Positions 30,689-37,541 of a stretch of DNA of 39,574 nt are shown here, piece after piece (the stretch's first letter is position 1; each line of letters begins with the position of its first letter). The translations under genes were made by a program, and so were the position numbers. Under the pieces are notes generated by a model, which saw only the letters and a program-made list of their open reading frames with translations, ran no database searches and was not told where the DNA came from. Source of the stretch: an uncultured Anaerolineae bacterium. GTDB lineage: Bacteria; Chloroflexota; Anaerolineae; Aggregatilineales; Phototrophicaceae. The stretch covers positions 1 to 39,574 of the forward strand of contig CALAJK010000059.1 of the NCBI GenBank assembly GCA_937922795.1, given 5' to 3'.

Positions 30689-31921
30689 TCAGTACTTGGG
30701 CAGGCTGGGGTCAACCTCGTCGGCCCAGGCCAGGATGCCGCCTTTGACGTTGAGCATCGGGTTGCGGTAGCCGGCCTCGCGCAGGCAGCGGATCACATCG
30801 GCGCTGCGCACGCCCGATCGGCAGTGGACGATCAGCTCGCGGTCGTCCGGGATCTGCGCCAGGACGGTCTCATGGCGCAGTTTGCGTCCGGCCAGCAGCG
30901 CGTTCTTGGCCGCCAGGATGTCGCCTTTGGGGATGCGCAGCGTGCCCTCCAACGCGACGATCGCCCACTCGTGCGGGTCGCGCACGTCCAGGATGAGCAG
31001 GTCCTCACCGGCGTCCAGCCGCGCTTTCAGGTCGCGCACGCTGATCTCGTCCACCGGCGCGCCGGCGTCGCCCGTGCGGTACAGGCTGCGGTCATGGGCG
31101 GGCATTCCGCAGAACTGCTCGTAGTCGATCAGTTCGACCTGTTCCGCCGGCACGCTGCACACCGGGCAGTTCGGGTTTTTGCGCACCTTCAGCGTGGTGA
31201 AGCTCATCTCCAGCGCGTCGTACAGCAGCATCCGCCCGATCATCGGCTGGCCGATGCCGAGGATGAGCTTGAGGGCCTCGGTCGCTTGCATCGTGCCGAT
31301 CGTCCCCGGTAGGATGCCCAACACCCCGCCTTCGGCGCAGCTTGGCACGAGGCCGGGCGGCGGCGGCGTGGGGAACATGCAGCGGTAGCACGGCCCCTCT
31401 TTGGCGTAGAACACGCTGAGCTGTCCTTCAAAGCGGAAGATGCTGCCGTAGACGTTGGGCTTGCCCAGCTTGACGCAGGCGTCGTTAACCAGATAGCGCG
31501 TGGGGAAATTGTCCGTCCCGTCGATGATGACATCGTATGGGGCGAACAGCTCCAGCGCGTTGGCCGAGGTCAGCGGCACGTTGTGCTTCTCGATCTGCAC
31601 GAATGGGTTCAGATCCTTCAGCCGGCGCTCAGCGCTGTCCACCTTCAGCGCGCCCACGCTGGCCTGGCCGTGGATCACCTGGCGCTGCAGATTGGACTCG
31701 TCGACCACGTCATAGTCCACCAGCCCGATGCGGCCGATGCCGGCAGCCGCTAGGTACAGCGCCAGCGGGCTGCCCAGGCCGCCGGTGCCGATCAGCAGCA
31801 CCGACGATGCCTTCAACCGACGCTGGCCTTCGATGCCCACCTCCGGCATGATGAGATGGCGGCTGTAACGCCGGATTTCTTCGTTGGAAAGTTCCGCCGT
31901 AGATTCGACTACCGGTAACAT
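30689..31921 (-). CDS. moeB: MoeB/ThiF adenylyltransferase fused to rhodanese
   Basis: Encodes 410 residues from ATG 31921, with GAGGAG 5 nt upstream. The E1-like domain (about 10-265) has the ATP loop GTGGLGS (45-51), TDNF with D136, the crossover Cys in SCAEGGVLG (C195), and zinc pairs C178/C181 and C252/C255. A rhodanese domain (about 290-405) has active-site loop HCRSGVRS with C367. Such fusions activate the C-terminal Gly of a ubiquitin-like sulfur carrier as acyl-adenylate and then deliver sulfur from the rhodanese persulfide to give a thiocarboxylate. It is the last gene of the minus-strand sulfur operon, 29 bp after the thioredoxin. The partner carrier is at 32920. It could also serve molybdopterin synthesis, but no moa genes are present here. 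Confidence 0.92.
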   Translation of the reverse strand: MLPVVESTAELSNEEIRRYSRHLIMPEVGIEGQRRLKASSVLLIGTGGLGSPLALYLAAAGIGRIGLVDYDVVDESNLQRQVIHGQASVGALKVDSAERRLKDLNPFVQIEKHNVPLTSANALELFAPYDVIIDGTDNFPTRYLVNDACVKLGKPNVYGSIFRFEGQLSVFYAKEGPCYRCMFPTPPPPGLVPSCAEGGVLGILPGTIGTMQATEALKLILGIGQPMIGRMLLYDALEMSFTTLKVRKNPNCPVCSVPAEQVELIDYEQFCGMPAHDRSLYRTGDAGAPVDEISVRDLKARLDAGEDLLILDVRDPHEWAIVALEGTLRIPKGDILAAKNALLAGRKLRHETVLAQIPDDRELIVHCRSGVRSADVIRCLREAGYRNPMLNVKGGILAWADEVDPSLPKY

Positions 31922-31950
31922 GCTGCTCCTCGATGACAAAGTGTGATCCA

Positions 31951-32361
31951 TCACAAAGCTGTCGCTTCGATCTGCCGGCGCAGTTTGGGCACATCGGCCA
32001 CGCCGTGATTGACGTCGCGCGGCTGGCCGCGCCCGTCCAGGATGAAGGTGGTCGGCGCGGTGAACACGCCCCATCGCCGGGCGGCGTCCGGGTCTTGAGA
32101 GGCGTCTACCTGGATCACCTGGATCTGGTCGCCCAGCTCGGACTGCAGGCGCGCCAGCGCCGGCTGCTGCTGCGTGCGGCAGGGCACACAGCCCGGCGTG
32201 GTGAAGTAGACCACCGCCGGCGTGCCCGGTCGGAAACCGTTCAGGATTGGGTCAGCCAGGGCGCTGGCCGCCGCTCGGCGTAAATGGCAGCGCCGCACTA
32301 AGCAGTAGGCCGCCAGGCCGAAGACGAATAGGACGATGACCAGCAGCAGCCGTTCAACCAT
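31951..32361 (-). CDS. Membrane-anchored thioredoxin-fold protein
   Basis: Encodes 136 residues from ATG 32361, preceded by GGTGGAGAG. One N-terminal membrane anchor (about 4-22) is followed by a thioredoxin fold with active site TTPGCVPCR (C58 and C61) and the cis-Pro segment FTAPTTFILDGRG. The CVPC dithiol fits reduction of a disulfide or persulfide near the membrane. In the operon it probably keeps a sulfur donor or the rhodanese/MoeB cysteines reduced; this is inference. Orientation of the soluble domain is not certain because residues after the anchor are Arg-rich (VRRCHLRR), which favours the cytoplasmic side. Confidence 0.85.
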   Translation of the reverse strand: MVERLLLVIVLFVFGLAAYCLVRRCHLRRAAASALADPILNGFRPGTPAVVYFTTPGCVPCRTQQQPALARLQSELGDQIQVIQVDASQDPDAARRWGVFTAPTTFILDGRGQPRDVNHGVADVPKLRRQIEATAL

Positions 32362-32430
32362 AGTCTCTCCACCTCGATCACCGCGGCAGCATTCCAATAC
32401 CCATGTTCATTCGAAAAACCTGCCCGGCCG

Positions 32431-32886
32431 TCATTTCACCGGCGCGCGGCTGAAACCCGGCACGCCCAGCCGGTTGAGCTGGTAGTACATCCAGCAGCCC
32501 AAGCAGAAGTTCAGCCAGAAGTTCAGGTTGGCCAGGGCGATCACCACCCATACTAGGACCCACGCTGGAACGGGAATGCCCGCCAGCAGGAGCACGGCGG
32601 CGGCGGCGTTGAACAGCCCGCCGACCAGCAGAGCGAAGCGGTGCGGCTCCGGGTTGTCCGGGATGACGCGCGGCTTGACCAGGCCGCTGGGTTTGACGAC
32701 CCGCTGGTACAGCAGCCGATAGGGCGCGAACGGCGCGTCCGCTGCCCCTAAAAGCTGCGCGATGGCCACCAGCGCCACCAGCGGCCAGGCGTCCAGCACG
32801 AACGCCAGCACCAGCAAAATGATGGTCGCTGCCTGTCCGGTCTTGAGTGCCGTCTGGTCTACTTGACGCAAAGTCTCGGCTGCCAT
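32431..32886 (-). CDS. DUF4395 membrane protein
   Basis: Encodes 151 residues with three to four membrane helices. The segments VDQTALKTGQAATIILL, PDNPEPHRFALLVGGLF and LNFWLNFCLGCWMYYQL match the DUF4395 family (PF14340). This family is often found next to thioredoxins and rhodanese-like genes, and its conserved CLGC cysteine pair near the C-terminus suggests a redox or sulfane-sulfur function. Here it lies between the sulfur carrier (33 bp) and the thioredoxin (69 bp), supporting a role in moving sulfur or reducing power across the membrane. Function unproven. Confidence 0.88.
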   Translation of the reverse strand: MAAETLRQVDQTALKTGQAATIILLVLAFVLDAWPLVALVAIAQLLGAADAPFAPYRLLYQRVVKPSGLVKPRVIPDNPEPHRFALLVGGLFNAAAAVLLLAGIPVPAWVLVWVVIALANLNFWLNFCLGCWMYYQLNRLGVPGFSRAPVK

Positions 32887-32919: not shown

Positions 32920-33222
32920 TCAGCCTGATGCCAGGTCGGAGTGGCTGGCGCCGCGCCCGCCGGCGATGCTGGGGATGATGCGCAGGCTGTCGCCGGGCTC
33001 CAGCGGCGTCGCCAGGCCATCGAGGAAGCGCACATCTTCCTCGCCCAAGAACACGTTGACGAAATTGCGCAGTTTATCGCCATCGAACAAATGCGCCCGC
33101 AGTTCAGGGTACTGCCGTACCAGATCGTCGAGCGCCGCGCCGATGGTATCGCCGCTCACCTCCACCTGCGCCTGGTTGCCAGTATACGGCCGCAGCGGGG
33201 TCGGAATTTTGATGCTGACCAA
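32920..33222 (-). CDS. MoaD/ThiS/CysO-type sulfur carrier with C-terminal extension
   Basis: Encodes 100 residues if begun at TTG 33222. The GTG at 33231 touches the GAGGAG Shine-Dalgarno sequence, whereas the TTG lies 8 nt after it. The beta-grasp fold is evident: VSIKIPTPLRPYTG, the LDDLVRQYPELRAHLF helix, NFVNVFLGEEDVRFLDGL and the end GDSLRIIPSIAGG, close to mycobacterial CysO. Carrier proteins of this kind normally end in Gly-Gly, the sulfur-accepting site. Here Gly88-Gly89 is followed by 11 more residues (RGASHSDLASG), so a protease must cut first; the JAMM protease of this operon fits. The carrier should receive sulfur from MoeB-rhodanese and give it to MetY. Confidence 0.9.
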   Translation of the reverse strand: MVSIKIPTPLRPYTGNQAQVEVSGDTIGAALDDLVRQYPELRAHLFDGDKLRNFVNVFLGEEDVRFLDGLATPLEPGDSLRIIPSIAGGRGASHSDLASG

Positions 33223-33355
33223 GGGTGTCACTCCTCACATGCAGATGGAACTACTCTCAATCGAAAGGCCTGAGCGCGGGGGCTTTGTCCCCGATTCGAC
33301 GCGCCGTTTCTACCTGAACTTATGCGCCGGCACAACCTCGGCATGTAGGCGGCGA

Positions 33356-34555
33356 TCAGACGGCCGCCTGCCGCGCCCACAGCCGGTCGAGATAGCCGCC
33401 GACGATGTGCGTCATCGTCTCAACCTCGACTAAAAACGAGTCGTGGCCAAATGACGCCTCCACGTGATGATGTTCGACTTCGCGCTTTTGTGCCTCCAAA
33501 GCGTGCACCAGCTCCCGTGCCTGAGCCTCGGTGTACAGCCAGTCGCTGGAGATGCTGACCACCAGGAACGGCGACCGCGTCCGCGCCACCGCCGCCGCCA
33601 GCGAGCCGTAGCCGTCGGCGGCGTCATAGTAATCGAGCGCCTTGGTGATGTACAGGTAGCTGTTGGCGTCGAAGCGTTCGACGAACTTCTGCCCCTGGTG
33701 CTTGAGATAGCTTTCGACGGCGAAATCCACGTCGAAGTTGTACTTCAAACGACCATGCTGCGCCCGCCGCCCGAACTTCTGCTCCAGCGACGTCTCGCTC
33801 ATGTACGTCACGTGGCCGACCATGCGCGCCACCGCCAGGCCGCGCTCTGGGCGCGGGCCGTCGTAGTAGTCGCCGCCGTTCCAGTTCGGGTCGGCATAGA
33901 TCGCCTGGCGGCCGATCTCGTTGAAGGCGATGTTCTGGGCTGACGAGCGCGGCGTGCTGGCGATGAACAGGCAGGCGCCGACGCGCTCCGGGTAGTCAAT
34001 GGCCCACTGGAGCGCCTGCATCCCGCCCATGCTGCCGCCGCCGACCGCGAACAGCCGCTCAATCCCCAGGTAGTCCAACAAGTGGCGCTGCGCCGCCACC
34101 ATGTCCTGCACCGTCACGAACGGGAAGCGCAGCCCATAGCGCCGTCCATCAGGCGCCAGCGACGACGGCCCGGTGCTGCCCTGGCAGCCGCCAATCACAT
34201 TCGAGCAGATGACGCAAAAGCGGTTGGTGTCGAACATCTTGCCTGGACCAACCGCGTCATCCCACCAGCCCGGCTTCTCGTTTGGGTCAGCCGTGTGATA
34301 CCCGGCCACATGGGCGTCGCCGGACAGCGCATGACAGATGAGGATGGCGTTGGAGCGATCGGCGTTCAGCCGGCCGTAGGTCTCGTAGGCCAGCGTGAAA
34401 CGCTCCAACCGCCCGCCGCCCCGCAGGTGCAGCGGCATCTCGAAGTGCGCGTACTGCCGCCGGACGATGCCAACCGAACCCGGCTGATGCCGGCGGTAGA
34501 GGCTGGGATGAGCCTGGCGTATGGGTGTCGTCCTATTGTTGTGCACAGCCAGCAT
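33356..34555 (-). CDS. metX: Homoserine O-acyltransferase MetX
   Basis: Encodes 399 residues. AGGAGG lies 7 nt before ATG 34555. The alpha/beta-hydrolase fold carries the triad S175 in VGGGSMGGMQ, D338 in SISSDWLYT and H371 in SFGHDSFL. The segments HALSGDAHVAG, GWWDDAVGPGK and NVIGGCQGSTGP are signatures of MetX. The enzyme activates homoserine as O-acetyl- or O-succinylhomoserine, the substrate of MetY next door. Acetyl versus succinyl cannot be decided from these motifs alone. It follows metY by 70 bp, with a strong hairpin in the gap. Confidence 0.96.
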   Translation of the reverse strand: MLAVHNNRTTPIRQAHPSLYRRHQPGSVGIVRRQYAHFEMPLHLRGGGRLERFTLAYETYGRLNADRSNAILICHALSGDAHVAGYHTADPNEKPGWWDDAVGPGKMFDTNRFCVICSNVIGGCQGSTGPSSLAPDGRRYGLRFPFVTVQDMVAAQRHLLDYLGIERLFAVGGGSMGGMQALQWAIDYPERVGACLFIASTPRSSAQNIAFNEIGRQAIYADPNWNGGDYYDGPRPERGLAVARMVGHVTYMSETSLEQKFGRRAQHGRLKYNFDVDFAVESYLKHQGQKFVERFDANSYLYITKALDYYDAADGYGSLAAAVARTRSPFLVVSISSDWLYTEAQARELVHALEAQKREVEHHHVEASFGHDSFLVEVETMTHIVGGYLDRLWARQAAV

Positions 34556-34625: not shown

Positions 34626-35963
<1,338 letters not shown>

Positions 35964-36014: not shown

Positions 36015-36083
36015 CGGCTGCTAGCCGCCGGCGGTCAGCCGCCGTCGCCTGGACGGCCGCTGAGCGCTGAGGGCTAACGGCTA
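36015..36083. repeat. Degenerate GCTnAGC-type low-complexity stretch upstream of metY
   Basis: Between the JAMM stop and metY, units such as GGCTGCTAGCCGCC, GGTCAGCCGCC, GCTGAGCGCTGAG and GGCTAACGGCTAG follow each other. They are variants of one GC(T/C)nAGC theme and can fold in several ways. It extends into the last codon of the JAMM gene. It may be a slipped-strand repeat or a structured spacer in the operon mRNA. Confidence 0.4.
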
Positions 36084-36506
36084 GGCCACCGTCAGCGGCT
36101 CCTCGTCAAACTGGGTGCGGTCGGGCCGCAGCCGCCAGGCGCGCATCCCGGCCTGCTGACCGTTCGTCACCTCGGCGATGAGGTAGCTGAAATGGGGCAG
36201 GGCATGGTCGCGGTCGAACGCCGACGGGACTGCCGGCGAGTCCGGGTGGCTGTGGTAGTAGCCCACCAGCGCCAGCCCACGCGCGTCGGCTTCGTCCTCT
36301 AGGCGCGCCCAGTCGGCGGGCGTCATGGCGTAGCGGTGATGCTGCTCTTCCGGCGCGAATACGTTAGCGACGGCTGTCACCTCCACAATCTCAACCGTGT
36401 CACCATCTTGTCGTCCCAGCAGGAAGCCGCCGCCTTCGTTAGGATAGGCCGCTTCCAAGTGGCGGAAGATTGCGGCTTGCAAGTCACGGCGGATGATGAT
36501 ATTCAC
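36081..36506 (-). CDS. JAMM/Mov34-family metalloprotease (Mec+/HcyD-like)
   Basis: Encodes 141 residues from GTG 36506, with AGGAGAG about 4 nt upstream; the longer frame from a TTG at 36542 overlaps the terminator U-tract. The JAMM signature is complete: E24 in PNEGGGFLLG, then H85-x-H87-x7-S95-x2-D98 in HSHPDSPAVPSAFD. Bacterial members of this group (Mec+ of mycobacteria, HcyD of Wolinella, QbsD) remove residues after the Gly-Gly of sulfur carriers, or cut a product amino acid from them. Here the carrier at 32920 has an 11-residue extension, so trimming is the expected role. It is the first structural gene after the attenuator and is followed by metY at 129 bp. Confidence 0.92.
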   Translation of the reverse strand: MNIIIRRDLQAAIFRHLEAAYPNEGGGFLLGRQDGDTVEIVEVTAVANVFAPEEQHHRYAMTPADWARLEDEADARGLALVGYYHSHPDSPAVPSAFDRDHALPHFSYLIAEVTNGQQAGMRAWRLRPDRTQFDEEPLTVA

Positions 36507-36535
36507 TGCGCTCTCCTGACTGCTGACCACCGGCG

Positions 36536-36570
36536 TAAACAAAACGAGCTAACCAGGACGGTCAGCTCGT
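36536..36570 (-). terminator. Intrinsic terminator inside the sulfur-operon leader
   Basis: On the minus strand, 11 bases (36570-36560) pair with 36554-36544 around the 5-nt loop GUCCU. All pairs are Watson-Crick except one G-U. The run UUUUGUUU follows at once (36544-36537). This is a textbook rho-independent terminator, placed between the leader peptide stop (36598) and the JAMM gene start (36506). Its position means that operon expression needs read-through, so it is an attenuator. Confidence 0.85.
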
Positions 36571-36597
36571 AGGGCTTGCGGGTTACGCGGCGGTGTT

Positions 36598-36711
36598 CTA
36601 AAACCGCTCCGGCGTCACGCGTCCTGGGAATCGGCCAAGGCCATGCATACACATGCACATACAGGGCATGACCTCAACGAACGGGACGGGGGACGCGTTT
36701 GTTATGCTCAT
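36598..36711 (-). CDS. Cys/Met-run leader peptide of the sulfur operon
   Basis: A 37-codon ORF starts at ATG 36709-36711 and ends at TAG 36598-36600. It contains the run PCMCMCMHG (residues 16-24), with three Cys and three Met codons alternating directly after another Met-Pro. Seven bases separate the ATG from the -10 TACGCT, so the mRNA probably starts at or next to the AUG and is leaderless. A terminator follows 28 nt after the stop. The coding run of the two sulfur amino acids made by the downstream operon is strong evidence for a regulatory leader. CCAGGACG, covering codons 29-31, is complementary to CGUCCUGG at the terminator loop (36560-36553). The frame also opens further upstream (to 36828), but transcription would start too late for that. 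Confidence 0.75.
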   Translation of the reverse strand: MSITNASPVPFVEVMPCMCMCMHGLGRFPGRVTPERF

Positions 36712-36718
36712 GGCCGCT

Positions 36719-36747
36719 AGCGTAACATGGCTTGCGGCAGATTGCAA
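36719..36747 (-). promoter_or_regulatory. Promoter of the sulfur operon
   Basis: On the minus strand, -35 TTGCAA (36742-36747) and -10 TACGCT (36719-36724) are 17 nt apart, with the extension TGT just before the -10 (36725-36727). It points to transcription from about 36711, the A of the leader ATG. The extended -10 resembles TGTTACAAT upstream of leuS. Confidence 0.65.
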
Positions 36748-36848
36748 GAGGTCAGCGGGGTAAATTTTCGAAATCATCCCGCAACGTCTGGCGCAGCGCC
36801 CGCGTATAGTAGGGATAGCAGCATCCATCTGGCCGCAGGAGGCGCGCG

Positions 36849-37541
36849 ATGATCCCGATCAAAACCCTTCAGCCGGTCCGCATCAAGGCCTATGTGACCT
36901 ACGGCCTGATCCTGGTCAACGGGCTGGTTTTCCTGTGGCAGCTCACGCTGTCACCGCGCCAACTCTACGAAACTTACTACGCGCTGGCGGTCGTGCCGTG
37001 CGAGCTGAGCCGCAGCTTGTTCGCGCCGGAGACGCTGCTCGATCTGGTGCGCAGCCTATTCCTGCACGGAAGCTGGGTGCATCTGGTCGGCAATATGACG
37101 TATCTATGGATCTTCGGGCGCAATGTAGAGGAATACTACGGCCACCGGCGCTTCTTCGTCCTGTACCTGGTCGCTGGCGCGCTGGCGGCGCTGACCGAAA
37201 AGGCCGTCAATGCGGCGCTGTGCGCCCCGATGATCGGCGCCAGCGGGGCCATCGCCGGCGTGCTGGGCAGCTACCTACTGCTGTATCCGGGGTCGCGGGT
37301 GCGGGTGATGATCATCTTCTTCCGCTTCTTCCCGCGCTTCTACAACGTTCAGGCGCTGGTGGTGCTGGGCTTCTGGTTCATCATCCAGTTGTTCAACGGC
37401 CTAGCCAGCCTGGGCGCTGACACGCTCGGCGGCGGGGTGGCCTTCTTCGCCCACATCGGCGGTTTCTTGGCTGGGGCGCTCATCACCTTCGTCTACCTGA
37501 TGTTCAACCCGCCCCCCGACCGTGACGTATACGTTAACTGA
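36849..37541 (+). CDS. Rhomboid-family intramembrane serine protease
   Basis: Encodes 230 residues; AGGAGG lies 8 nt before ATG 36849. Six membrane helices are visible. The catalytic dyad is S132 in GASGAIAG (TM4) and H202 in FFAHIGGFLAGA (TM6). Oxyanion-region residues are H78 and N82 in WVHLVGNMTYLWIFGRNVE. Rhomboids cut substrate proteins within the membrane; no substrate is evident. It is transcribed divergently from the sulfur operon, and TATAGT (36805-36810) is a possible -10 of its own. No functional link to the sulfur genes is apparent. Confidence 0.94.
   Translation: MIPIKTLQPVRIKAYVTYGLILVNGLVFLWQLTLSPRQLYETYYALAVVPCELSRSLFAPETLLDLVRSLFLHGSWVHLVGNMTYLWIFGRNVEEYYGHRRFFVLYLVAGALAALTEKAVNAALCAPMIGASGAIAGVLGSYLLLYPGSRVRVMIIFFRFFPRFYNVQALVVLGFWFIIQLFNGLASLGADTLGGGVAFFAHIGGFLAGALITFVYLMFNPPPDRDVYVN

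Follow-up and report, generated by a model that had tools for sequence, protein, structure and literature searches.

Directly ahead of a sulfur operon, the 39,574-nt stretch of Anaerolineae DNA analyzed here (the window) carries a conserved leader that probably works as a ribosome-mediated transcription attenuator. Its 37-codon open reading frame (ORF) occupies a leaderless position, and shortage of cysteine, and probably of methionine, would cause read-through into the operon; to this reading we assign a probability of roughly 0.78. The leader is real and conserved in related genomes, and its ORF, promoter position, terminator, matched competing helix, conservation and Cys/Met pattern were all obtained by computation.

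The preliminary description of this DNA had lined up a promoter, an AUG, a 37-codon ORF, the run PCMCMCMHG and a terminator on the minus strand, and each of them is present there. The ORF (MSITNASPVPFVEVMPCMCMCMHGLGRFPGRVTPERF) begins with an ATG at 36711, 7 nt past the -10 element, so that a transcript starting there would be leaderless; its stop codon lies at 36600-36598. The promoter is missing from the output of a strict sigma-70 scan (0 found; 9 of 12 matches required), but the same promoter form recurs in relatives. Among 67 scored leaders, the window's included, a -35 TTG is found in all 67 (taking the best of five spacings), the spacer measures 17 nt in 62 and 18 nt in five, and TG precedes the -10 in 65; the ATG follows the -10 by 6-8 nt (5-8 nt being the search criterion) and by exactly 7 nt in 56. 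A divergent gene for a rhomboid-domain protein (36849-37541, plus strand) starts about 100 nt from the leader promoter.

Features of the leader and of the operon behind it, with positions in the window
Feature	Position	Strand	Support
Promoter: -35 TTGCAA (36747-36742), 17-nt spacer, extended -10 TGT-TACGCT (TACGCT 36724-36719)	36719..36747	-	
Leader-peptide ORF, 37 codons and stop, leaderless position	36598..36711	-	kindred ORF in 71/78 upstream regions
Sensor codons PCMCMCMHG, codons 16-24, Cys at 17, 19, 21	36640..36666	-	core comparison among leaders
Region 2 (CCAGGACG), 5' strand of putative antiterminator, codons 29-31	36620..36627	-	8 bp with CGTCCTGG
Intrinsic terminator and U tract	36536..36570	-	terminator scans; helix covariation in 45 leaders
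JAMM/JAB-domain protease, first structural gene, GTG start	36081..36506	-	PF14464, 9.2e-26
metY, O-acetylhomoserine sulfhydrylase	34626..35951	-	TIGR01326 above cut-off; PF01053
metX, homoserine O-acetyltransferase	33356..34555	-	NF001209 above cut-off
ThiS/MoaD-like sulfur carrier protein	32920..33231	-	PF02597
DUF4395 protein	32431..32886	-	PF14340
Thioredoxin-like protein	31951..32397	-	PF00085
ThiF/MoeB-type activating enzyme with rhodanese domain	30689..32074	-	PF00899, PF00581

Behind the terminator, the genes follow in the order JAMM-metY-metX-ThiS-DUF4395-Trx-ThiF. In the sulfur operon proposed earlier, metY and metX score above the TIGR01326 and NF001209 cut-offs, and the ThiS and ThiF domains are matched. 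By analogy, the gene set fits a thiocarboxylate-dependent sulfur transfer to O-acetylhomoserine. The precedent is the sulfur-carrier-dependent methionine synthesis of Wolinella, in which a protein thiocarboxylate likewise is the sulfur source for methionine (Krishnamoorthy and Begley 2011, cited in PMC6225789); as excerpted there, that work differs in being about enzymes and mentions no attenuator.

Of 61 genomes searched with the JAMM protein, 54 gave a match, and the best 80 of 336 loci were taken; together with the window they form a set of 81 loci, 78 of which extend at least 290 nt upstream. Counts on these 78 regions replace our initial locus counts, which held near-duplicates. An ORF with at least two Cys codons within nine, starting 5-8 nt past TAnnnT, occurs in 71 of the 78 regions (shuffles: mean 2.1, maximum 6), and one with at least three in 59 (shuffles: mean 0.2, maximum 1). 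In a control stretch 850-1200 nt upstream, none of 74 sequences contains such an ORF at either cut; the antisense strand yields three at the lower cut and one at the higher. Seven JAMM regions lack a qualifying ORF: in six, a Cys-rich ORF is present but falls outside the criterion, and in L087 there is none at all. The comparison of related genomes that the preliminary description had suggested therefore speaks for the leader: frame, Cys run, terminator and competing helix recur while bases vary. One outcome that it had named as fatal to its attenuator interpretation – no conserved frame or C-M run in relatives – failed to appear, the terminator being conserved as well, and that interpretation is supported.

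Titles place 77 of the 80 relatives (best 80 of 336 loci) in Chloroflexota (Anaerolineae, Aggregatilineales, Phototrophicales etc.); nearly all are metagenome assemblies, and the remaining three are titled otherwise, probably in error. Loci titled Pleurocapsa minor (L107), Proteobacteria (L051) and Bacteroidetes (L056) show a typical leader with JAMM-metY and are probably misassigned Chloroflexota contigs. For other Chloroflexota, 201 sampled genomes yielded 16 JAMM loci, none of them with a convincing leader and one with a weak two-Cys ORF. Hence, as far as tested, the device is confined to one order-level lineage, which fits an origin independent of the actinobacterial leaders discussed below.

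As in known attenuators, an intrinsic terminator lies between the leader ORF and the first gene. Its helix (36570-36544) comprises 11 bp with a 5-nt loop at -17.7 kcal/mol; the consensus scan describes it with 12 pairs and a 3-nt loop. The scan gave a terminator in 75 of 80 leaders, though two or more of these are doubtful. Across an alignment of 45 leaders, 95.1% of the cells of this helix are paired, and 40 two-sided changes are counted against 9.4 in shuffles; such changes affect six of the 11 pairs, a value reached by 23 of 500 shuffles. The consensus fold of the 45 leaders consists of the terminator only.

The complementarity of codons 29-31 to the terminator loop, also part of the original proposal, holds exactly: CCAGGACG (36627-36620) forms a perfect 8-bp match with CGTCCTGG, which covers the terminator loop and the stem top. 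In the leaders at large, a competing helix of up to 11 bp (L049) joins the 3' part of the ORF to the loop and the adjoining stem bases. Duplex energy between region 2 and the terminator is a looser measure and weak against shuffles (mean z -1.06 over 74 leaders, -0.9 for the window); contiguous helices were therefore compared with permuted partners instead. These tests cover 70 of 75 leaders, since L032, L034, L065, L072 and L074 had wrong terminator bounds. With its own partner, the helix scores 16.6 versus 13.96 (sd 0.31) with permuted ones (0/5000 permutations over the 70 leaders); taken singly, 19 of the 70 beat 90% of swapped partners. Antiterminator pairs counted on fixed alignment columns are poorly kept (in 12 to 40 of 45) because loop lengths differ. 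A candidate hairpin at the stop codon was dropped, as it occurs in 64 of 70 leaders versus 63.1 in shuffles, no more than chance.

When the RNA is cut before the 3' arm of the terminator is complete and is left free past a stalled ribosome, the antiterminator is the predicted fold in 66 of 70 leaders, compared with 50.7 (sd 3.4; maximum 58 in 30 permutations) for permuted partners. In the window leader it is predicted at -32.3 kcal/mol if the ribosome stands at the first Cys codon and at -28.7 kcal/mol if it stands at the last, and does not form if the ribosome is at the stop codon. With the terminator fully made, 59 of 70 leaders fold best into the terminator and 11 into the antiterminator, a stalled ribosome notwithstanding; the window leader likewise prefers the finished terminator. 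Because the finished terminator is the stabler fold, the model needs the antiterminator to win during transcription.

According to this model, the transcript would begin at or beside the AUG of the leaderless ORF. As long as Cys-tRNA and Met-tRNA are charged, the ribosome should reach the stop codon and sit between region 2 and the terminator, which could then fold and end transcription ahead of the operon. If charged Cys-tRNA or, in the window leader, Met-tRNA became short, the ribosome would be expected to stall within CMCMCM, leaving CCAGGACG free to pair with CGUCCUGG, in the loop and upper stem of the terminator then being transcribed. Provided that this antiterminator forms before the terminator's 3' arm exists, polymerase would enter JAMM-metY-metX-ThiS-ThiF. 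Cys would be the basic signal of the family, with Met codons presumably added where the operon makes homocysteine.

Three explanations other than an attenuator were weighed. Runs of C and M resemble metal-binding motifs and the Cys residues are strongly conserved, as one would expect of a functional Cys/Met-rich micropeptide that binds metal or takes part in redox reactions and merely precedes an ordinary terminator. Outside the core, however, the peptides share little by eye, Cys and Met differ in number and order from leader to leader, and the 3' parts of the ORFs, taken together, match the terminator loops of their own leaders; we therefore regard a micropeptide as improbable. Still less probable is a metabolite-binding riboswitch, for SAM or another ligand, overlapping the ORF by accident: SAM riboswitches often control methionine operons, yet searches of the window with gathering scores and of 36400-36850 with E values up to 1 gave no match to any Rfam covariance model, whether SAM riboswitch, T-box or other, and the consensus fold of the 45 leaders shows nothing beyond the terminator. 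Terminators and short ORFs are both common, and a chance ORF ahead of an ordinary terminator would combine the two; the conservation of the leader (59/78 regions versus 0.2 in shuffles and 0/74 in the control stretch) refutes it and makes its probability negligible.

JAMM operons were classed as without metY if the fetched locus had no metY match above 50% identity and ThiS or ThiF was seen; left out of the class counts were three loci with a cut upstream region (L032 and L044, where the C-M run is nevertheless visible, and L045), L076, in which metY was not seen, and L087, which has no leader. Per 10-codon core, Cys amounts to 3.55 in metY operons, 3.60 in JAMM operons without metY and 3.58 in cysK leaders, while the corresponding values for Met are 3.61, 0.78 and 0.42. 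At least two core Met are found in 31/31, 10/45 and 0/19 of these leaders, in 3/3 leaders of metY genes without JAMM, and in 7/15 rhodanese leaders (class TST, n = 15, from which G005, G007, G025 and G036 were left out for their weak Cys runs). Cys and Met codons stand before metY-metX-ThiS-ThiF, in keeping with the product of that operon. Of the Cys-Met signal first proposed, the Cys part is constant; the Met part is not universal and is added mainly where metY belongs to the operon. Judged by these counts, Cys is the conserved signal of the leader family, and the Met codons follow the operon.

The same difference is seen within genomes. Six genomes of one genus carry both a metY leader with 3-5 core Met and a cysK leader, whose core contains 0, 0, 1, 0, 0 and 0 Met in G000 (the window's own genome, a draft of 127 contigs), G005, G007, G009, G014 and G015; the single Met in G007 precedes the Cys run. 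For G014, a second contig (L143) supplied the full metY leader, whose core is identical to that of the cut copy (L003). In G042, MCCGCMMC is the sequence of the metY leader and CLCWLDSCC that of the leader of a JAMM operon without metY.

It is less likely, in our view, that the ribosome stalls at Cys codons alone, with Met codons as neutral passengers or by-products of TGTATG-type repeats. Such a Cys-only attenuator agrees with the constancy of Cys across classes and with the many leaders without Met. Moreover, ATGTG yields TGT or TGC in both frames, so that the window core holds four Cys in the +1 frame and three in frame 0; among 30 metY leaders examined, +1-frame core Cys codons equal or exceed those of frame 0 in nine, the window's included, and the +1 frame has a stop inside the ORF span in all 30. 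Against this stand the concentration of Met in metY leaders (36% of the core versus 3.1% outside), its near absence (0 or 1) from the cysK cores of the same six genomes, and the variety of its arrangements (MCCMMMCCM, MPMMMGMCC, CMCMCM), which are not one simple repeat. Since Met content and metY share a history, phylogenetic tests matter. Five independent supported pairs, from a quick tree with many weak branches, give 1.6 in the same direction versus 0.0 opposite at a cut of at least two Met, but 1.2 in favour versus 1.5 against at a cut of three; because this test is too thin for Met versus metY, PGLS was added. It estimates 1.07 more core Met with metY (p = 0.006), whereas the whole-peptide Met gives p = 0.068 and Cys is not significant. 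The phylogenetic correction weakens the association of Met with metY, and the phylogenetically independent evidence for Met is thin. From the codon evidence as a whole, Cys sensing by these leaders appears well supported and Met sensing by the metY leaders likely.

The leader is not a single case: in sister genomes, kindred leaders precede genes for a rhodanese-type sulfurtransferase, cysK, assimilatory sulfite reductase and the binding protein of an oligopeptide-type transporter. Model R1, largely a terminator model, has matches with E values of 0.1 or less in 60 of 61 genomes. Forty of its matches were fetched and judged by hand, giving 21 with a Cys-rich short ORF (19 in leaderless position) and 19 without. 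The 21 are followed by rhodanese genes (11, one with an intervening gene), metY (2), JAMM (2), peptide-transporter binding proteins (2), cysK (1), sulfite reductase (1) or a contig end (2). Thirty rhodanese loci include 14 in which a Cys ORF in leaderless position lies no more than 500 nt away; at the corresponding place in the window's own genome, the Cys ORF lacks the -10. At one rhodanese locus (L155, G013:C3), a look-alike of beta-carbonic anhydrase, recognized by eye, lies between leader and gene. Ten metY loci outside JAMM operons comprise three with a leader, also Met-rich, six without and one cut at a contig end. For cysK, a leader is found in 19 of 22 loci examined, with none convincing in L183, L184 and L235, and none was found upstream of the weaker cysK-like genes L200 and L201; several of these ORF starts were chosen among in-frame ATGs, and in one gene-search set only 4 of 16 cysK leaders occupy the leaderless position. 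The sulfur-gene leader regulon is therefore patchy across loci. Upstream of an assimilatory sulfite reductase gene, L144 (G042:C1:1474000-1479400) has a Cys-rich short ORF and a terminator, the ORF not being leaderless by its -10 score. Short ORFs with terminators also precede a solute-binding protein of oligopeptide type by likeness (L149, G010:C133; FYGCMCTY) and an oligopeptide-type binding protein identified by profile match (L153, G003:C597; MSCCCVMM); these two leaders suggest that uptake of sulfur-containing peptides may be under the same control.

A broader reading is that this Chloroflexota lineage keeps a sulfur regulon under leader peptides whose codon mix is tuned per operon: cysK leaders would rely almost wholly on Cys, metY-metX leaders on Cys together with Met, and rhodanese leaders would lie in between. 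Each leader would be a two-input sensor of charged Cys-tRNA and charged Met-tRNA, equipped with an intrinsic terminator, and would have arisen separately from the leaderless Cys and Cys-Met leaders of actinobacteria, though in front of similar genes. We consider this an even bet. Within one genome, leader codons follow the operon product, so that codon content would predict the signal. As a natural experiment, such leaders bear on the tuning of attenuators and on the question whether two amino acids can be weighed by a single leader; the two-amino-acid sensing is the part most worth experimental attention. They also outline a candidate sulfur regulon (rhodanese, sulfite reductase, sulfur carrier, cysK, metY) in organisms whose closest named relatives are almost all metagenome assemblies.

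With the trp, his, thr and ilv attenuators, the window leader shares control codons, a terminator and a putative alternative helix, and leaders of the thr and ilv kind contain codons for more than one amino acid. It differs from them in its predicted leaderless start, its Cys and Met codons, the sulfur operon, and the pairing of region 2 with the terminator loop and stem top. Also comparable are the leaderless polycysteine short ORFs of mycobacteria, on which Canestrari reportedly published in 2020. Two genes that they accompany, cysA2 and nirA, are annotated as thiosulfate sulfurtransferase and sulfite reductase. Leaderless Cys-rich short ORFs are described before cysA2, Rv0485 and nirA (Shell 2015, PMC4633059), and in the excerpted account they resemble our leaders in leaderless position, Cys cluster and placement upstream of sulfur genes of overlapping kinds. 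Mycobacterial cys leaders are described, in the part of the source used here, as having Cys runs near the stop codon and no conserved terminator hairpins (Seliverstov 2005, PMC1262725). The window leader, from another phylum, departs from this actinobacterial pattern in having a terminator with a matching helix and 16 codons between the last Cys and the stop.

The uORFC-8-2 motif of Rhodobacterales similarly has a terminator, together with a uORF in which Cys codons stand in tandem; unlike our leaders, as outlined in PMC8632094, it has two Cys codons inside a stem, precedes cysS and belongs to Alphaproteobacteria. The nearest counterpart is metL of Streptomyces lividans TK24, a leaderless 29-residue peptide containing CMCRRMC before metNIQ and a proposed attenuator (PMC8079986). 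Its leaderless transcript corresponds to the one predicted for the window leader, and both have a Cys-Met cluster before methionine genes. In the excerpts of that article, metL differs in belonging to an actinomycete, in preceding an import operon rather than metY-metX and in having no typical intrinsic terminator; its authors call it methionine-dependent, and those excerpts describe no operon-tuned leader family. Because of metL, the window leader is not the first methionine-codon attenuator, and the alternating Cys-Met leader that had seemed unfamiliar is in part already in print; the version before JAMM-metY-metX was not found in the open literature searched. There, most subscription papers lying outside the search, no Cys or Met leader was found for Chloroflexi. 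Within that same literature, the kind of device is known, while the terminator design with a matched helix, the metY-metX operon, codons that follow the operon and the lineage were not found. Beside the actinobacteria, the lineage studied here represents a second one in which sulfur genes are preceded by Cys and Cys-Met leaders in leaderless position.
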